Both the position numbers and the translations under genes were made by a program. From Acidovorax sp. (GTDB lineage Bacteria > Pseudomonadota > Gammaproteobacteria > Burkholderiales > Burkholderiaceae_C): 36,464 nucleotides of DNA. The notes under the pieces are model-generated. The model was not told the origin of the DNA. It did not search any database and was given only the letters and a program-made list of their open reading frames with translations. Each line of letters opens with the position of its first letter. Position 1 is the first letter of the stretch. The stretch lies in contig SDXZ01000069.1 in the NCBI GenBank assembly GCA_004210805.1, positions 1 through 36,464 on the forward strand, given 5' to 3'. Shown piece by piece: positions 10,235 to 30,916 of this stretch.

Positions 10235-10433
10235 CGTCGTTGGGTCGCCTTGCCGTGCTACAGCACTGTCTGCGGCGCCCCGCCTGGTTATGCAATGGAA
10301 CGCAAATCGCCAGCGGGCCGGTTTTCCGAGCTCCTGCAGCATTCGTTGGGTGTGATGGCCCCCACCTGACTTTGCGCTGACCGCCGCATGGCGCGGCCGG
10401 TCAGCCCGCGCGGCCAGCACGGACAATACCGCC

Positions 10434-17789: not shown

Positions 17790-18755
17790 TCATCCCTGCC
17801 GCTGCGCGCGCGAATGGCTGTGCACCGCCTCGACCAGCGCCGACACATGCTCGGGCGGCGTGAACTGGCTGATGCCGTGGCCCAGGTTGAAGATGTGCGT
17901 GGGGCCGGTCGCGCGGGCTTGGCCGAGGTTGGCCGTCCAGTCCAGGCCCAGCACCTCACATTGGAGGTCCTTCATTTCGGGCAGCCAGATGCCGCCGCCC
18001 TTGGTGAACACGATGCGCGGCACGTCGGTGCCGTCCACGCCGGTGCGCTTGAGCTGTGCCAGCACCCGCTTGGTGTACGCCAGGCTGAACTCCTGGAACG
18101 CGCCATCGGCCAGCACGCCGCCCCAGCTGTCGAAAATCATCACGGCCTGCGCGCCCGCGTCGATCTGCGCATTGAGGTAGGCCGCCACACTGTCGGCGTT
18201 GATGGCCAGGATGCGGTGCATCAGGTCGGGGCGCGCGTACATCAGGCTCTTGACCAGGCGGTAGTCGTCCGATCCCTTGCCCTCGACCATGTAGCAGGCC
18301 AGCGTCCAGGGGCTGCCTGAGAAGCCGATCAGCGGCACGCGGCCGTTCAAGGCCTTGCGGATGCTGGTGACGGCGTCGAACACGTAGCGCAGCTTGTCCA
18401 TGTCGGGCACGGCCAGTTCGGCCACCGCGGCTTCGTCGCGCACTTGCTTGGCAAATCGCGGGCCCTCGCCTTCGGCAAACGACAGGCCCAGGCCCATGGC
18501 GTCGGGCACGGTGAGGATGTCGCTGAACAGGATGGCCGCATCGAGCGGAAAGCGCTCGAGCGGCTGCAGCGTCACCTCGGTCGCGTAATCCACGTTGGTG
18601 GCCAGGCCCATGAAGCTGCCGGCCTTGGCGCGCGTGGCCTTGTATTCAGGCAAATAGCGTCCCGCCTGGCGCATGAGCCACAGGGGGGTGTAGTCGGTGG
18701 CCTGGCGGCGGCAGGCGCGCAGGAAGGTGTCATTGGAGAGGGGGGCAAAGCTCAT
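17790..18755 (-). CDS. hemE: Uroporphyrinogen decarboxylase with apparent internal deletion
   Basis: 321 residues from the ATG at 18755 ([18 protein letters not shown]), where family alignments start; an upstream ATG at 18812 would add 19 unrelated residues. The enzyme decarboxylates uroporphyrinogen III to coproporphyrinogen III in heme synthesis. Active-site residues are present: R29 and R33 ([11 protein letters not shown]), D79 (FSDIL), Y155 (CYMVEG), S210 (FDSWGG) and H293 (NLGHGI). However, the usual stretch after the DWTxxLxxAR strand, containing the QGN(L/I)DP motif and the following helix, is absent. A282 is joined directly to [12 protein letters not shown] at 17909/17910, in frame. 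Normal family length is about 355-370, so about 48 residues are missing, one strand-helix unit of the TIM barrel. Either the gene is impaired or the assembly has collapsed. It is 53 bases downstream of the MBL-fold gene on the same strand. Confidence 0.9.
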
Positions 18756-18808: not shown

Positions 18809-19804
18809 TCAATGCGCCAGCTTGTACTGCACCAGTCCGTACACGCTGTAGCCCACCAGGTCGGGCATTGCGTAGCCGGGGAAGGCCTTGGCCATTTCTG
18901 CCTGGATCGCCTGGTGGTGCGCGCCCTGGCGTGCGGGGTCGCTCAGCTCGCTGGCGCGGCTGCCCAGGCGGTGGATGTAGCCCGTCACCACTGCGTCGGC
19001 CTTGTCGAGGTAGGCCGTTTGCTCGGCCACCGCCTGCGCCACGGGCACAAAGCTGCCGCGCCCGCCGTAGACCTTGCCGGTGCCCAGGCGGGGCAGTTCG
19101 GCCAGCCCGGCCTTCCAGCCGGCCAGCGTGGGCAGGGGCTTTCCGTTCACGATACCGCCCTCCAGCCAGGCGTGGGTGCGCGTGTGCACCAAGTCCCCCA
19201 CGGCCAGGTCGCCGGTCTGGTCAAAGCGCACCACGGTCTGGTTGCTGGAGATGCCCGGCTGGGGCAGCTCGAACAGCGTGATCGTTTCGCCCGATTGGAG
19301 CGTGATGCGGTGCTGGCCGGAATACGTGGTCTTGATGGCCTCTGCGCGCGCGTAGGTTGCGTCAGTGAACGCTTTGGCAACGTGCACCCAGAAATGGCGC
19401 TTGTACGCGTCGGTGCCCGGCACGGCGGCGGCGGTCTTGGCCGACGCGATGCTCTCGATGCCCTGGGCGTGGAACACCGAGAGGCCGTTGAATTTGTCGG
19501 GGTTGGGGTGTGTCACGACCACGCGGGTCACAGGGGACTTCGTCTGGCTCCGGATGGATGCGAGCAGCGCCTCGGCATGGGCGGGGGTGAACTGGGCATC
19601 GACCACCGTCACCTCCTGGCCATCGTCGTACCAGACAGAGTGGGTGTTGAAACCGGCAGCGTCGGAGGTGAAAACGTTTACGGTGCCCGCCCAGGAGGTG
19701 GCGCCGGCGAACGTGAGGGCGATGGCCGCCAGCGCGCGCAGAGCGCGGGGGCGGCGCAGGGGCCGGAAGGGGCTGGTAAAGCGGGCGAATTGCGAGGCAA
19801 TCAT
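18809..19804 (-). CDS. Exported MBL-fold protein with degenerate metal motif
   Basis: 331 residues. A basic N-terminus followed by a hydrophobic stretch and TSWA|G suggests a cleaved signal peptide of about 39 residues, so it is periplasmic or secreted. The fold is metallo-beta-lactamase-like: [20 protein letters not shown], then the motif region [13 protein letters not shown], then [16 protein letters not shown]. The canonical HxHxDH is H99-P-N101-P-D103-K104, so two of the four metal ligands of this motif are replaced. The remaining ligand candidates H99, D103 and the GD/H late region may still hold one metal, or the protein may not be catalytic. The substrate is unknown. It is divergent from an AraC regulator, which probably controls it. 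hemE follows 53 bases later and could be co-transcribed. Confidence 0.83.
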
Positions 19805-23573: not shown

Positions 23574-23593
23574 TCCCCTCGGAGCTATAAATC

Positions 23594-24577
23594 ATGGAAA
23601 CCATAGGAACCTGGTGGATGTGGGCGGGTTTTGCCGTCTTTGTGGTCGTCGCGATCGGCGTCGATCTGTTGGTGATGGAGCGCCAGGGCGCGCACAAGGT
23701 CACGATGAAAGAGGCTCTGCGCTGGAGCCTCTTGTGGTTCTCGCTGGCGTTCGTGTTCGTCGCCATCCTCTGGTGGTACCTCGACAGCAGCCAGGGCCGC
23801 GAGGTGGCCAACACGGTGTCGATGCAGTTCATCACCGGCTACCTGGTCGAAAAGAGCTTGTCGATCGACAACATCTTCGTCTTCCTGATGCTGTTCAGCT
23901 ACTTCGCCGTGCCGCCGCAGTACCAAAAGCGCGCGCTCATCATCGGCATCATCGGCGCCATCGTGCTGCGCACGCTGCTGATCCTGGCGGGTGCTTGGCT
24001 GCTGGCCACCTTCCACTGGCTGCTGTACGTGTTCGGCGCGTTCCTTGTGGTCACGGGTGCCAAGATGTGGTTCGCTGCGGGCCAGGAGCCTGATATCGCC
24101 ACCAACCCGGTGCTCAAGCTCTTGAAGAAGCGCATCCGCATCACCGACCAGTTCGACGGCGAGAAACTCTCCACGCTGATTAACGGCGTAAAGCACTACA
24201 CCCCGCTGTTCGTGGTGCTGGTGCTCATCGGCACCACCGACATCATCTTCGCGGTCGACAGCATCCCGGCCATCTTCGCGATCACCAACGACCCGTTCAT
24301 CGTGCTCACGGCCAACATCTTCGCCATCCTGGGCCTGCGTGCGCTGTACTTCCTGCTGGCTGACCTGGCCGACCGCTTCCATCTGCTGGCCTATGGCCTG
24401 GCGCTGGTGCTGATCTTCATCGGTGGCAAGATGCTGCTCATCGACCTGGTCAAGATCCCGATCGGCTACGCCCTCCTGGTGACAGCCGGCCTGATTGCCG
24501 GGTCCATCTTCCTGTCGCTGCGCAGCTCGGGTGGCAACACCCAGCAGCCCGCACAGGCCCTGCCCCCCAAGGACTGA
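23594..24577 (+). CDS. TerC/Alx family integral membrane protein
   Basis: 327 residues, the usual length for Alx-type members. There are about nine hydrophobic segments. The two family signatures are present: EKSLSIDNIFVF in the third or fourth helix and TTDIIFAVDSIPAIFAIT in the seventh, each with the acidic residues thought to bind metal. A cytoplasmic loop (about 160-190, rich in Lys and Arg) separates the halves. Relatives are linked to manganese efflux (Alx/MntP-like response to alkaline pH) and tellurite resistance; the ion here is inferred, not shown. The start is the ATG at 23594 with GGAG at 23581-23584 as binding site. It is divergent from the NhaR-like regulator and followed after 18 bases by a small membrane protein gene, so these form an operon. 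Confidence 0.93.
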   Translation: METIGTWWMWAGFAVFVVVAIGVDLLVMERQGAHKVTMKEALRWSLLWFSLAFVFVAILWWYLDSSQGREVANTVSMQFITGYLVEKSLSIDNIFVFLMLFSYFAVPPQYQKRALIIGIIGAIVLRTLLILAGAWLLATFHWLLYVFGAFLVVTGAKMWFAAGQEPDIATNPVLKLLKKRIRITDQFDGEKLSTLINGVKHYTPLFVVLVLIGTTDIIFAVDSIPAIFAITNDPFIVLTANIFAILGLRALYFLLADLADRFHLLAYGLALVLIFIGGKMLLIDLVKIPIGYALLVTAGLIAGSIFLSLRSSGGNTQQPAQALPPKD

Positions 24578-24595
24578 CCGCAAGGAACACACGCC

Positions 24596-24757
24596 ATGGA
24601 ACTGCTCGACTCTGTGCTGCTGTTTCTCTTGGGCGGCCTCATCGCCGCCACCGTCATCGCCCACCGCGCGGGCAACGAGAAGCGCGATGTGCGGCTGCTG
24701 ATGGGGCTCTCGGCGCTGTGCGGCGCGGGCACCGCTGCCGCCTTTGCGTGGAACTGA
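24596..24757 (+). CDS. Small membrane protein (53 residues) in the terC operon
   Basis: Begins ATG at 24596 with AAGGAAC upstream, 18 bases after terC, and ends TGA at 24757. Sequence in parts: MELLDSVLLFLLGGLIAATV, then a polar stretch with HRAGNEKRDVR, then LLMGLSALCGAGTAAAFAWN. It has two short hydrophobic segments flanking a charged loop, so a hairpin in the inner membrane is likely. I recognise no family. Its position suggests it assists TerC or the next protein. Confidence 0.65.
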   Translation: MELLDSVLLFLLGGLIAATVIAHRAGNEKRDVRLLMGLSALCGAGTAAAFAWN

Positions 24758-24764
24758 CCGCGCA

Positions 24765-25337
24765 ATGATGGCCATGCTGTGCACCCTGCGCCGCTGGCTG
24801 CGCGGCCTGGAACCCCGGGCGCGCACGCACCTGGACCGCAGCTGGCTGGCCAGCCTGCGCCCCTGGCTGGAGCGGCGCGAGCTGTTCCGCTTTCAGCGCC
24901 AGCCGCTGGCGCGCGGTGTGGCGGCCGGCATGTTTTGCGGGCTCATCCCCGGGCCGCTGCAGATTCCGGGCACGCTGCTGGTGTGCGCAGGGATTCGCGG
25001 CAACGTCGTGGCCGGCGGCGTGGCCACGTTCTACACCAACCCCTTCACCACCGTGCCGCTGTATGCGCTGGCTTTCTACCTGGGGGCGCTGGTGATGCCC
25101 GGCACACAGACGCTGCCCCCGTGGAGCAGCGTGGCACCGGGCGGTGATTTTTCAGTGCAGGCGATGGCCGCCTGGATCCAGGCCCTGGGCACACCGCTGC
25201 TGGTCGGCCTGCCCACGCTGGGCCTGCTGCTCGCGGCGCTGGGGTATGCGGCGGTGCAGCTGATGTGGCTGGCACCGGCATGGCAACGCAAGTGCCGGCT
25301 GGTGCGCTCTCGGCAGGCGTCGGGATTGCGGCCTTAG
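24765..25337 (+). CDS. DUF2062 family membrane protein
   Basis: 190 residues from the ATG at 24765, seven bases past the stop of the small gene. The N-terminal third is basic and amphipathic. Hydrophobic segments follow at about 53-82, 90-112 and 145-178. The strings LARGVAAGMFCGLIPGPLQ and FYTNPFTTVPLYALAFYLG are the DUF2062 hallmark. The function of this family is not established; members occur next to transport and envelope genes. It is probably the last gene of the terC operon. Its TAG stop shares bases with the convergent gene's stop (TTAG at 25334-25337). Confidence 0.88.
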   Translation: MMAMLCTLRRWLRGLEPRARTHLDRSWLASLRPWLERRELFRFQRQPLARGVAAGMFCGLIPGPLQIPGTLLVCAGIRGNVVAGGVATFYTNPFTTVPLYALAFYLGALVMPGTQTLPPWSSVAPGGDFSVQAMAAWIQALGTPLLVGLPTLGLLLAALGYAAVQLMWLAPAWQRKCRLVRSRQASGLRP

Positions 25338-25758: not shown

Positions 25759-25798
25759 AAAAAAAAGCTGACGGTGGCGGTGCCGACGGCAGCGTCAG
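25759..25798 (-). terminator. Rho-independent terminator of the monooxygenase/Bug unit
   Basis: On the minus strand CTGACG-n19-CGTCAG, with an internal GCCGTCGGC palindrome, is followed by C and eight T. The left arm includes the TGA stop codon of the Bug receptor gene, so termination begins at the last codon. Confidence 0.8.
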
Positions 25799-26763
25799 TC
25801 CAGCTTCACGCCCACCTTGGTGATCACCCGGCCCCACTTCTCCCGCTCGGCACGCGCAAAGCTCCCCATCTGCGCCGCGGTGCCGGGCATGGGCTCCACG
25901 CCCAGGGCCTGCAGGCGTGCCTTGGTGCGCGTGTCGGCCAGGGCGGTCTGCAGCGCCTTGCTGAAGTTCGCCACCGCCTCGGGCGGGGTGCCGGTGGGCG
26001 CCACCACACCTTGCCAGGCATAGCCCTCAAAGCCCTGCAGGCCTTGCTCTGAAATGGTGGGCACATCGGGCATGGTGCCCACACGCTGCGGGCTGGCCAC
26101 ACCAATGGCCTTGACCTTGCCGCTGGCCAGGAACGGGTACACCGTGGCGCTGTCGATCCACATCGCGGGCACCTGGCCGCCGATCACATCCTGGATCGCA
26201 GGGGCTGCGCCCCGGTAGGGCACGTGGGTGAGCTTGAGGCCGCTCTGCTCGCGGAACAGCTCGCCCACCAGATGGTGCGGGCTGCCCGGCCCGGCCGACG
26301 CCCAGTTCACGCCATCAGGCATCCCCTTGGCCCAGGCCATGAACTCCTTGAGATTCTTGGCTGGCACGTTGTTGGACACCACCAGGAACATCGGGAAGCG
26401 CACTAGCAACCCCACGGGCTGGAAGTCCTTCTCGGCGTTGTAGCTGAGCTTACTGAACAGGAAGGGGTTGGCCGCCAGCGTGGCGAAGTCGGCCGAGAAA
26501 ATGAGGTTGCCGTAGTCCTTGTTGCGTGCGCTGTACTCCGCGGCGATGTTGGTGCCCGCGCCCGGCTTGTTGTTGATGACGATGGGTCGACCCAGCGTCG
26601 CCGACATCGACTCGGCAATCGTGCGCGCCACGATGTCGGAGCCGCCACCGGCGGCGTAGCCCACCACCCATTCGAGCGGCTTCTGGTCTTGGGCGGTGGC
26701 GGGCAGGGACAGTGGGGCGAGTGCCAGGGCACCGAGGGTGGCGAGGAAATGTTTGCGCAGCAT
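25795..26763 (-). CDS. Bug/TctC-type tripartite tricarboxylate receptor protein
   Basis: 322 residues with an N-terminal signal peptide (MLRKHFLATLGALALAPLSL, cleavage near PATAQ). The mature part matches the Bug family: WVVGYAAGGGSDIVARTIAESM, GRPIVINNKPGAGTNIAAEY, VPYRGAAPAIQDVIGGQVPAMW, and AWQGVVAPTGTPPEAV. It is a periplasmic receptor for carboxylates or other small anions. No TctA/TctB membrane partners are in the window; this is common for Bug proteins, which are often orphans in this group. It follows the DUF2783 gene on the same strand about 100 bases further on and is the last gene of the unit, ending in a strong terminator. The ligand is likely the substrate of the neighbouring monooxygenase, by context only. 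Confidence 0.93.
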   Translation of the reverse strand: MLRKHFLATLGALALAPLSLPATAQDQKPLEWVVGYAAGGGSDIVARTIAESMSATLGRPIVINNKPGAGTNIAAEYSARNKDYGNLIFSADFATLAANPFLFSKLSYNAEKDFQPVGLLVRFPMFLVVSNNVPAKNLKEFMAWAKGMPDGVNWASAGPGSPHHLVGELFREQSGLKLTHVPYRGAAPAIQDVIGGQVPAMWIDSATVYPFLASGKVKAIGVASPQRVGTMPDVPTISEQGLQGFEGYAWQGVVAPTGTPPEAVANFSKALQTALADTRTKARLQALGVEPMPGTAAQMGSFARAEREKWGRVITKVGVKLD

Positions 26764-27147: not shown

Positions 27148-28800
27148 TCAGGCGTGGGTCGCAGTGGCCCGGGCCAGGGCCGCGCGCACTGCAGCTTGAG
27201 CAGGCGCGCGCCAGCGGGCGCAGACATGCTGGTCGGGGCGCACCAGGTAGGCGGTGCCGGGCAGGGCGTCCAGCCGCTGGTTGGCTAGGCCCTCGGTGTC
27301 CAGCACGTCCACGCCGATCTGCAGCACCTGCACCTGCGGCATGCCAAACGCCCACGCCGGTGCAGCGCCAAAGACGATGAGCGTGAACTCAGGCCCCAGC
27401 GCGCGCAGCAGCCAAGTTGGCTGGCCCTGGCGTGCGAGTGGTGCGTCCAGCAACACGGCACCCGGCACCTGCGTGCCCGCGAAGGCGTCGATATCGGGCG
27501 TGTTCAAAGGCGATGTATGCAGCGTGGCCGGCACCGACAGGCGCCCGCTGTTGACGATGCGCCGCGCAAACGCATGGTCGCGCGCCAGGTGCAGTGCGGC
27601 GTCGCGGAACAGCCGACTGACCTCGCTCTTGGGCGTGATGAAGTCGGTGGCGCGCGTGGAGTTGGCAATGTTCTCGTCGGCCGCGTACTCTCGCTCGGGG
27701 CCGTAGGTGGCGACCAGCGCAGGGCTGGCGCGGCCCTGCAGAACCCAGTCGAGCTTCCAGGCCAGGTTCTCCGCATCCTGCACGCCGCTGTTGGCGCCGC
27801 GTGCGCCGAAGGGTGACACACCGTGGGCACTGTCGCCCACAAAAATCAAGCGGTCGTGCACGAAGCGGTCCATGCGCAGGCAGGCAAAGGTGTAGACGCT
27901 CGCCCAGTCCAGCTCGAACCGTGCGTCGGGTCCCAGCAGCGCCTGCACGCGCGGCAGGATGTTCTCGGGTTTCTTTTCTTCCTCGGGGTCGGCGTCCCAC
28001 CCCAATTGAAAGTCGATGCGCCACACGTTGTCGGGCTGGCGGTGCAGCAGCACGCTCTGGCCGGGGTGAAACGGCGGATCGAACCAGAACCAGCGCTCGG
28101 TCGGAAACTCTGCACCTCCGGCGAGCTTCACGTCGGCGATGAGGAACCGGTCCTTGAAGATGCGGCCTTTGCTTTCCAGGCCCAGCATCTGCCGCATCGG
28201 GGAACGTGATCCGTCGCACGCGGCCACCCATTGCGCGCCGATGCGGTAGTCGCCCTCGGGCGTGGCCACGGTCAGCAACGCGCCGTCGCCATGCTGCTCC
28301 ACGGCGGTCACCTGGTTGTGCCAGCGGATGTCGATGCCCGGCAGCTGCAACGCGCGCTCCACCAGGTAGGCCTCGGCGTAGTACTGCTGCAGGTTGATGA
28401 AGGCCGGGCGCTCATGGCCGGGCTCGGGCAGCAGGTTGAACTCATACAGCTGCTCGTCCTGCAGAAACACCTTGCCCACATTCCACGACACGCCCTTGTC
28501 CACCATGCGCTGGCCCACGCCCAGGCGGTCCCAGATCTCCAGCGTGCGCTTGGCAAAGCAGATGGCGCGCGAGCCGGTGGAAAGCTTGTGGTCGTTGTCC
28601 AGCACCACCACACGCTGCCCGCGCTGCGCCAGGTCAATGGCCAGCGACAGGCCCACGGGCCCTGCACCCACGATGACCACGGGGTGCGCTGCGGGCGTCG
28701 TGCTGTCTTGGTCGGGCGAGCGCACGTAGCCGAATTCGAGGGCCTGCACCTCGGCGCCGCTGGCGCGGAAGGCCTCGGGGGGGATGTCTCTGGGGTTCAT
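27148..28800 (-). CDS. FAD-dependent aromatic monooxygenase, MhpA/PheA type
   Basis: 550 residues from the ATG at 28800 (MNPRDIPPEAFRASGAEVQA). A Rossmann GxGxxG (GAGPVG at 45-50) opens the FAD domain, followed by the DG motif region (AACDGSRSPMRQMLG) and the GD motif (LIFVGDSAHGVSPFGARGANSGVQDAENLAWKL). These are the three fingerprints of class A flavoprotein hydroxylases. The C-terminal third resembles the thioredoxin-like extension of MhpA/phenol hydroxylases. NAD(P)H-dependent ring hydroxylation of a phenolic or aromatic acid is the expected reaction; the exact substrate is unknown. It follows the MBL-fold gene after 195 bases that contain a family 2 repeat, and precedes the DUF2783 gene. 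Confidence 0.92.
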   Translation of the reverse strand: MNPRDIPPEAFRASGAEVQALEFGYVRSPDQDSTTPAAHPVVIVGAGPVGLSLAIDLAQRGQRVVVLDNDHKLSTGSRAICFAKRTLEIWDRLGVGQRMVDKGVSWNVGKVFLQDEQLYEFNLLPEPGHERPAFINLQQYYAEAYLVERALQLPGIDIRWHNQVTAVEQHGDGALLTVATPEGDYRIGAQWVAACDGSRSPMRQMLGLESKGRIFKDRFLIADVKLAGGAEFPTERWFWFDPPFHPGQSVLLHRQPDNVWRIDFQLGWDADPEEEKKPENILPRVQALLGPDARFELDWASVYTFACLRMDRFVHDRLIFVGDSAHGVSPFGARGANSGVQDAENLAWKLDWVLQGRASPALVATYGPEREYAADENIANSTRATDFITPKSEVSRLFRDAALHLARDHAFARRIVNSGRLSVPATLHTSPLNTPDIDAFAGTQVPGAVLLDAPLARQGQPTWLLRALGPEFTLIVFGAAPAWAFGMPQVQVLQIGVDVLDTEGLANQRLDALPGTAYLVRPDQHVCARWRAPAQAAVRAALARATATHA

Positions 28801-28995: not shown

Positions 28996-29952
28996 TCAAC
29001 CTTCCAGGGATTTCCACATCTGCACATCCCGTTCGGCCGTCCAGATGCGCGGGTCCGGGTACTGCGTGGCCTCGTCGTAAGCGCGGGTCACGTCAAACGG
29101 CATGCAGTGGTTGAAGATGACCCAGTGCCCATACTTGGGCTGCAGCTTCGCGAACGTGGCTTCGTAGACCTTGCGCAGGTCCTCGCCTTGGGCGGCGCTG
29201 GCCTTCACGCTCTCGTACAGGTCGCTGATGAAGGCGCGCGTGCCGGCCAGGCCGGCCTGTACCTGCTCGGGCGTCTGCAGCGCGGCGCCGCGGCCGGGCA
29301 CCAGCTTCTCGGGCTTCAGGGCGGCCAGGTTGTCCAGGGTCTGCGGCCAGTCCTGGAAGTACGCATCGCCCGCATACGGCGTGGCGTCGAACTCCACCAG
29401 GTCGCCGCTGAACAGGATCTTTTCCGCAGGCAACCAGGCCACCGTGTCGCCCTTGGTGTGGCCACGGCCCAGCTGCAGGATCTGCACTTCGAGCTTGCCC
29501 AGCCACAGGGTCATCTTCTTGTTGAAGGTCATGGTCGGCCAGGTCAGGCCGTCCGGCACGCTCTCCACGTTCTGGAACAGGCGCGGGAAGCGGCCGATCT
29601 CGCTGTCCTTGTCGAACTGGCCGCGCTCGACGATCAAATCGCGTGTGTCCTCGCTGGCAATGATGTGCTCGGCCCCGTAGGCGCTGGCGCCCAGCACCCG
29701 TACTGCGTGGTAGTGCGACAGCAGCACGTACTTGATGGGCTTGTCGGTCACTTCGCGGATGCGGCGGATTACGTCCTGTGCCATCACTGGCGTCGCCTGG
29801 GTGTCGATGACCATCACGGCGTCGTCGCCAATGATGATCCCGGTGTTGGGGTCGCCCTCGGCCGTGTAGGCATAGGCATGGTCGGAGAGCTTGTCGAAGC
29901 TCACTTTCTTGACTTCCAGGTCGGCGGCGGAGGCGAAGGTCTTGGTGGTCAT
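28996..29952 (-). CDS. MBL-fold hydrolase-like protein of the monooxygenase cluster
   Basis: 318 residues from the ATG at 29952; an ATG ten codons earlier (29982) lies in the regulatory region and is less likely. The MBL fold is clear: GIIIGDDAVMVIDTQATPVMAQDV, KPIKYVLLSHYHAVRVLGA, LGRGHTKGDTVAWLPAEKILFSGDLVEF. In the HxHxDH motif H80 and H82 are kept, but D84 and H85 positions are V and R. H165 and D184 are present. This would keep a first metal site (H80, H82, H165) and lose most of the second. No signal peptide, so cytoplasmic. It is the first gene of the divergent cluster and may hydrolyse a thioester or lactone in the same pathway. Confidence 0.87.
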   Translation of the reverse strand: MTTKTFASAADLEVKKVSFDKLSDHAYAYTAEGDPNTGIIIGDDAVMVIDTQATPVMAQDVIRRIREVTDKPIKYVLLSHYHAVRVLGASAYGAEHIIASEDTRDLIVERGQFDKDSEIGRFPRLFQNVESVPDGLTWPTMTFNKKMTLWLGKLEVQILQLGRGHTKGDTVAWLPAEKILFSGDLVEFDATPYAGDAYFQDWPQTLDNLAALKPEKLVPGRGAALQTPEQVQAGLAGTRAFISDLYESVKASAAQGEDLRKVYEATFAKLQPKYGHWVIFNHCMPFDVTRAYDEATQYPDPRIWTAERDVQMWKSLEG

Positions 29953-29998
29953 GGAGATGTAATTCGTTATAGGTGAATGCATTTATCTAAACGGAATG

Positions 29999-30016
29999 AT
30001 TTGATCGTAGTCAAAT
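29999..30016. promoter_or_regulatory. Palindrome in the IclR-MBL divergent region
   Basis: ATTTGA-tcgtag-TCAAAT, between the divergent starts. It is flanked by two related motifs beginning GCATTT (29979 and 30035). This is a likely IclR-family operator. Confidence 0.6.
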
Positions 30017-30097
30017 AATTCGCTCATGTCTAACGCATTTGTTTAGGTGAAAACCCGAAGGGGGTGGGCTGCCCGTGCGCCGTGGACAATCAACGCC

Positions 30098-30916
30098 ATG
30101 GCCACCTCTGCACCCGACACGCCCCGCCCCGATGACGAAGACGACAGCAGCCCGCGCACGCCGCGCGGCATCCAGAGCGTGGAGGTCGGCGGGCAGCTGC
30201 TCAAGGTGCTGGCGCGCACCGGGCGGCGCATGGCGCTCAAGGACCTGGCCCGCGCGGCCGACATGACCGCGGCCAAGGCGCATCCCTATCTGGTGAGTTT
30301 TGGAAAACTGGGCCTGATCGAACAGGACACAGTGAGCGGCCACTACGGTCTGGGCCCCCTGGCCATGCAGCTTGGGCTCATCAGCCTGCAGCAGGTCGAC
30401 CCGGTGCGGCTGGCGATTGCCGAGCTGCCTGCGCTGGCCCAGCGCATCGGCTACACCGTGTCGGCATCGGTCTGGGGCGACAACGGCCCCACCATCATCC
30501 GCGTCGAAGAAGGCCCGACGGCCGTGTACGTGGCCATGCGCCATGGCACCACGGCATCGGTGCGGCACACGGCCACCGGCAAGGTGTTTGCCGCCTTTGG
30601 CCCGCGCGAGCGCGCGGCCGCAGCACTGGCGGCCGAAGGTTTTTCCGGCGCGCTGGACGAGCCCGCGTTTGCCGCCGAACTGGCCGCCGTGCGCACCCAC
30701 CACATCAGCGAGGTCACGGACCAGCTCCTGCCCGGTATCAGCGCCCTGGCCACCCCGGTGTTCGACGGCTTTGGCCAACTGGTGTTGTGCCTGGCCGCCA
30801 TCGGCCCGAGCGCCACATTGCAGACCGGCCCGGACGGAGCCCCTGCGCAGCATCTGCGGGCCGCAGCGCTGGGGCTCTCGCAGCGGCTGGGCGCAGCGCA
30901 GGGCGGCGGTGCGTGA
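30098..30916 (+). CDS. IclR-family transcriptional regulator
   Basis: 272 residues from the ATG at 30098; a GTG at 30047 would add 17 residues not resembling the family. A polar leader (about 1-22) precedes the winged helix-turn-helix (GIQSVEVGGQLLKVLARTGRRMALKDLARAADMTAAKAHPYL). The effector domain contains YTVSASVWGDNGPTIIRVEEG, HTATGKVFAAFGP and ISALATPVFDGFGQLVLCLA, all typical. Divergent from the MBL/monooxygenase/DUF2783/Bug unit with a palindrome in between, it is the likely regulator of that unit, responding to the pathway substrate or an intermediate. Confidence 0.93.
   Translation: MATSAPDTPRPDDEDDSSPRTPRGIQSVEVGGQLLKVLARTGRRMALKDLARAADMTAAKAHPYLVSFGKLGLIEQDTVSGHYGLGPLAMQLGLISLQQVDPVRLAIAELPALAQRIGYTVSASVWGDNGPTIIRVEEGPTAVYVAMRHGTTASVRHTATGKVFAAFGPRERAAAALAAEGFSGALDEPAFAAELAAVRTHHISEVTDQLLPGISALATPVFDGFGQLVLCLAAIGPSATLQTGPDGAPAQHLRAAALGLSQRLGAAQGGGA

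Follow-up and report, generated by a model that had tools for sequence, protein, structure and literature searches.

A hemE gene of an Acidovorax sp. draft genome lacks 49 internal codons in frame, probably through an assembly error or a non-fixed variant

The window analysed here, a stretch of 36,464 bp that makes up the whole of contig 274 in the draft genome of an Acidovorax sp. (GCA_004210805.1, SDXZ01000069.1), carries a gene for uroporphyrinogen decarboxylase, HemE, which appears to lack an internal part of its barrel. The locus raises the question whether the organism lives with a broken enzyme of the heme pathway, whether it possesses a working enzyme of a shorter kind, or whether the gene as assembled is not the one used by the population. 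The gene and its parts were read as follows:

17790..18755, minus strand: hemE, uroporphyrinogen decarboxylase of 321 aa, with ATG at 18755 and stop at 17792-17790; matches to PF01208 and TIGR01464, best solved relative 4exq
17913..18755, minus strand: N-terminal part, residues 1-281, with R29, R33, D79, Y155 and S210
17908..17912, minus strand: deletion junction, placed to within a few bases; 147 bp of relatives absent, in frame
17793..17909, minus strand: C-terminal part with H293, residues 283-321, including the final strand of the barrel (HIFNLGHG)

An earlier sequence-only reading had described a protein of 321 residues without naming the strand; it is encoded by 17793-18755 of the minus strand, stop apart, and the plus-strand frame at the same place is not HemE. 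The protein matched PF01208 with 386.8 bits and the equivalog TIGR01464 with 355.9 bits against a curated cut-off of 302.95, so that the short form still counts as HemE, with the latter match split into two stretches and profile positions 271-309 unmatched. Its alignment to the closest solved structure, 4exq from Burkholderia thailandensis, likewise breaks into two pieces at the gap, and both alignment and models lack the complete barrel with the QGN-D-P strand. R29, R33, D79, Y155, S210 and H293, the six residues named in the sequence-only reading and numbered on the 321-aa protein, were as claimed all present, and invariant in a 36-row alignment; they are regarded as catalytic. An aspartate, a tyrosine and two arginines are mentioned in PMC10427985.

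The internal gap relative to relatives was confirmed. In DNA alignments with six syntenic relatives, 147 bp were missing from the window at 17909-17914 in all six (the aligner divided them as 66 + 81 in G008), and gene-level DNA comparison with 30 relatives returned the same 147 bp, or 49 codons; most of the best junction placements fall at 17908-17912, and a few relatives bound the site less tightly. The join proposed earlier at 17909/17910 is therefore right within the placement ambiguity, and the in-frame internal loss stands, its size having been put one codon too low at 48 residues or 144 bp. Of 116 relative loci (among which some may represent the same genome via two collections), 107 have an interval of 65-78 residues between the motifs GLDW and LGHG, compared with only 25 in the window protein, which argues that the gap is not a matter of chance; at the remaining nine loci the motif pattern failed, and the frames there were 368-377 aa long. 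In the intact relative L034 (Acidovorax sp. MAG_42) the lost piece corresponds to residues 283-331, has 68% G+C and, in the AlphaFold2 model, contains a strand (294-298) and helices 301-305 and 308-322, i.e. one whole beta-alpha unit. The preceding helix (277-284, minus its last two residues) and the following strand (336-339) are kept in the window gene. Thus the loss of a strand-helix unit alongside retained catalytic residues was described correctly, the lost strand being the KALQGN-D-P barrel strand with its helix; at 15 of the 49 missing positions, 35 aligned relatives agree without exception.

That close relatives might share the short form was tested in genus and family genomes and rejected, as the genus searches, a family-wide probe and the GLDW..LGHG intervals all showed full-length genes. 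A hemE match was obtained in 46 of 47 genus genomes, own included; in all 45 others with hemE the C-terminal part (from residue 279-282, the last ~40 residues) was matched as a separate piece, and the own genome, alone in the genus, gave a single match over 1-321. A junction probe of 54 residues spanning the join was searched at E 0.001 in the own and 298 other family genomes. It returned E 4.8e-34 and 116.6 bits in the own genome and a best E of 6.5e-18 elsewhere, where 293 genomes matched and five did not and the top score among the matches listed was 66.1 bits. Some of the listed matches in other genomes cross the join at 63-83% identity; 16 such loci, those starting at probe residue 8-14, were examined; the QGN strand is present in each of them, and the stretch from LDW (or VDW) to LGHG is 67-85 residues long. 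The short form was hence found neither in the 45 other genus genomes with hemE nor by the probe in the 298 other family genomes, and no report of this deletion was found in the open-access literature searched.

It should be added that a single hemE locus was present in 43 of those 45 genomes. In one exception (G027) the gene is divided between two contigs, and in the other (G006, C170:2-565), whose assembly has 8% contamination, the normal copy is accompanied by an extra partial hemE with an internal TAG. The remaining genus genome (G020), a draft rated 99% complete, gave no hemE by protein search or TIGR01464, probably because of an assembly gap.

The short HemE was modelled by AlphaFold2 with mean pLDDT 62.1 and pTM 0.71; an intact relative, aligned with the same set, reached 83.4 and 0.88. 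The short model still resembled UROD (4exq, TM 0.80 by query length), with an rmsd of 4.0 versus 2.1 for the intact relative; this is one pair of models, and low confidence does not prove misfolding. Without the strand-helix unit the enzyme would be expected to be unstable or inactive, and the gene as written is probably inactive. The predicted disruption of the barrel is supported by the models as probable.

The rest of the gene is not that of a decayed pseudogene, a reading rejected on its normal constraint. Over codons 1-281, omega between the window and 30 relatives had a median of 0.083, compared with 0.092 among the relatives themselves (435 pairs; Nei-Gojobori counts in both cases). Within the same codons, residues unseen in the 30 relatives were limited to 260 (E; D in all) and 265 (Q; D in 29, E in one), and E260 occurs in the wider alignment; over the last 39 codons there were no amino-acid differences to L002, L005 and L008, three of the four nearest relatives by DNA. 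Normal purifying selection on the rest of hemE suggests that any real gap is recent: a long-useless gene would bear marks, and on these substitution patterns the gap would be young, or not real, or the gene would still work.

As to how the gap came about, the sequence-only reading had supposed ARA-type repeats at both ends of the segment, which the relatives do not bear out. Of 30 relatives, 27 have a breakpoint microhomology of 0-3 nt, and L014, L016 and L029 have one of 5-6 nt. Close to the flanks, exact repeats reach 7-14 nt at most; in 19 of 30 relatives the longest is the CAACCTGGGC of two NLG motifs, which lies off the join. With at most 6 nt at the breakpoints and no long repeat, neither such repeats nor a simple k-mer collapse are supported; of the assembly collapse proposed earlier, the assembly fault remains favoured and the repeat-driven route does not. 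False gap closure, chimeric reads and strain variants need no long repeat. A hairpin-driven deletion was also rejected: the L034 segment with flanks folded no better than shuffled versions of itself, 159 of 200 of which did equally well (z 0.75).

Assembly quality was assessed by comparing 340 kb of own sequence with 1.2 Mb of another genome (G011) at not less than 75% identity and 70% coverage. Among the 32 matched frames, a thin sample from few contigs named by earlier matches and with some shadow frames (a slightly looser count places 15 of 33 frames inside the window and 14 in one other stretch), hemE was the sole frame with a gap of at least 8 residues. General assembly decay was therefore rejected, as nothing in these frames shows an assembly riddled with such gaps. 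Stops were flagged in three matched frames. Of the two inside the window, one is a shadow frame and the other has its stop upstream of the part that is conserved; the third is a frame in L156 with a stop close to its C-terminal end. With identity relaxed to 50%, which admitted 61 frames, three more gaps reached 12 residues or more: an antisense frame covering the hemE gap has two of them, and a 158-aa frame in L162, 62% identical, has one of 14 residues.

Several other features of the window were recorded. A cluster of short gaps versus six relatives lies at 10242-10342, close to where a frame begins (10388). Two metallo-beta-lactamase-fold hydrolases are encoded at 18809-19804 and 28996-29982 (minus strand), for which the best NCBIfam families among the matches listed were SoxH-like quinoprotein relay families, below their curated cut-offs. 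Frames of 280-413 aa at 23585-24826, 25795-26763, 27389-28231 and 30011-30853 (minus strand) had no NCBIfam match at 0.001.

The own draft (4.75 Mb, 401 contigs, 90.76% complete, 1.1% contaminated) holds one hemE only. Rescue by a second hemE, which the sequence-only reading had offered as one way out, is not supported, since neither protein search nor TIGR01464 found another copy in the assembled genome, of which ~9% may be missing. The missing 49 residues had a best match of E 1.79 in the draft, and weak matches on C230 (E 0.328) and C314 (E 1.79) were taken as noise rather than leftover hemE. HemF (coproporphyrinogen oxidase), the ferrochelatase HemH and four COX1-type heme-copper oxidases were matched end to end; the TonB heme-receptor model matched 34 stretches, none above cut-off, the best TonB-hemin receptor reaching 152 bits against 316.85. 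From these matches, and with no receptor over the cut-off, the organism seems equipped both for the synthesis and for the use of heme. A scan for radical SAM proteins, aimed at alternative heme routes, gave 11 matches, all kinds taken together. The hemE gene of E. coli K-12 stands in a list of genes found essential by TraDIS only and is noted as duplicated in the Keio collection, according to PMC5821084.

We favour, as rather probable, a local error of assembly or consensus, or else a variant that is not fixed; if real, the gap would probably disable the enzyme. Both the loss of function and the cause of the gap, as artefact or non-fixed variant, are what we infer. The assembled sequence would then not correspond to the working hemE of the living population, and the gap would be either a fault of the assembly or consensus at this place or a variant carried by part of the sampled cells. 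The gap is most likely not part of the population's working gene because the organism looks like a normal heme-making and heme-respiring one and the rest of hemE is under normal constraint. Further points counted in favour are that the gap is private to this genome and removes invariant positions, that the draft is fragmented and incomplete, that drafts of this group can miss the gene, as the genus genome without hemE indicates, and that E. coli hemE is in the TraDIS-only essential list of PMC5821084. Counted against it are the lack of a repeat long enough for k-mer collapse, the lack of a second such gap in the 32 frames (a thin sample), the frame being kept (one chance in three) and the position of the gap inside a contig of conserved synteny, away from its edge.

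One rival is a real, recently fixed loss-of-function deletion, after which the organism would make no heme of its own past uroporphyrinogen and would take heme or porphyrins from neighbours. The repeat-free junction fits an ordinary short-homology deletion, no second hemE was found in the draft, and 34 stretches match the heme-receptor model, albeit none over cut-off. Nevertheless, we regard such a fixed loss as unlikely, given the end-to-end hemF, hemH and four heme-copper oxidases, a best receptor at less than half its cut-off and a remainder of hemE in which constraint shows no sign of relaxing, although a loss of very recent date would leave no such sign. It is quite improbable that a full-length hemE resides in the unassembled part, with the short gene as a second copy that the cell can do without or as a strain variant: completeness of 90.76% leaves room for it, but the short gene sits in a priA-hemE neighbourhood that aligned to six of six relatives and hence at the ordinary locus, other genus genomes with hemE have almost always one locus, and the missing residues have no credible match in the draft. 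A short HemE that is real, expressed and active, and that closes its barrel or has it completed by dimerisation despite lacking the QGN-D-P strand and next helix, is very improbable. The kept catalytic residues, an in-frame gap near one complete beta-alpha unit and a model still like UROD speak for it; the lower model confidence and larger rmsd relative to the intact protein, the lack of any short form among the relatives searched and of a clear compensating change (residues 260 and 265 only, with E260 seen more widely) speak against it. A new kind of enzyme is thus a less likely explanation than an assembly flaw or a passing variant.

Should the gap be an artefact, the locus is a warning that a gene of the heme pathway with an in-frame gap can still score above a curated family cut-off. 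A deletion that is real and fixed would point to heme auxotrophy of very recent origin, and a functional protein would offer a natural experiment on the extent of barrel loss that such an enzyme tolerates.

Compared with known systems, the window protein is like HemE/UROD (PF01208, TIGR01464; e.g. 4exq) in its catalytic residues and in sequence along the 321 residues that remain, and differs from it by the loss of one strand and helix (49 residues). The full-length hemE genes of three congeneric genomes (L002, L003 and L005) and of the Acidovorax record L034 share 91.6-92.7% DNA identity with it over the common 963 bases, and all four carry the 147 bp that the window hemE is without.
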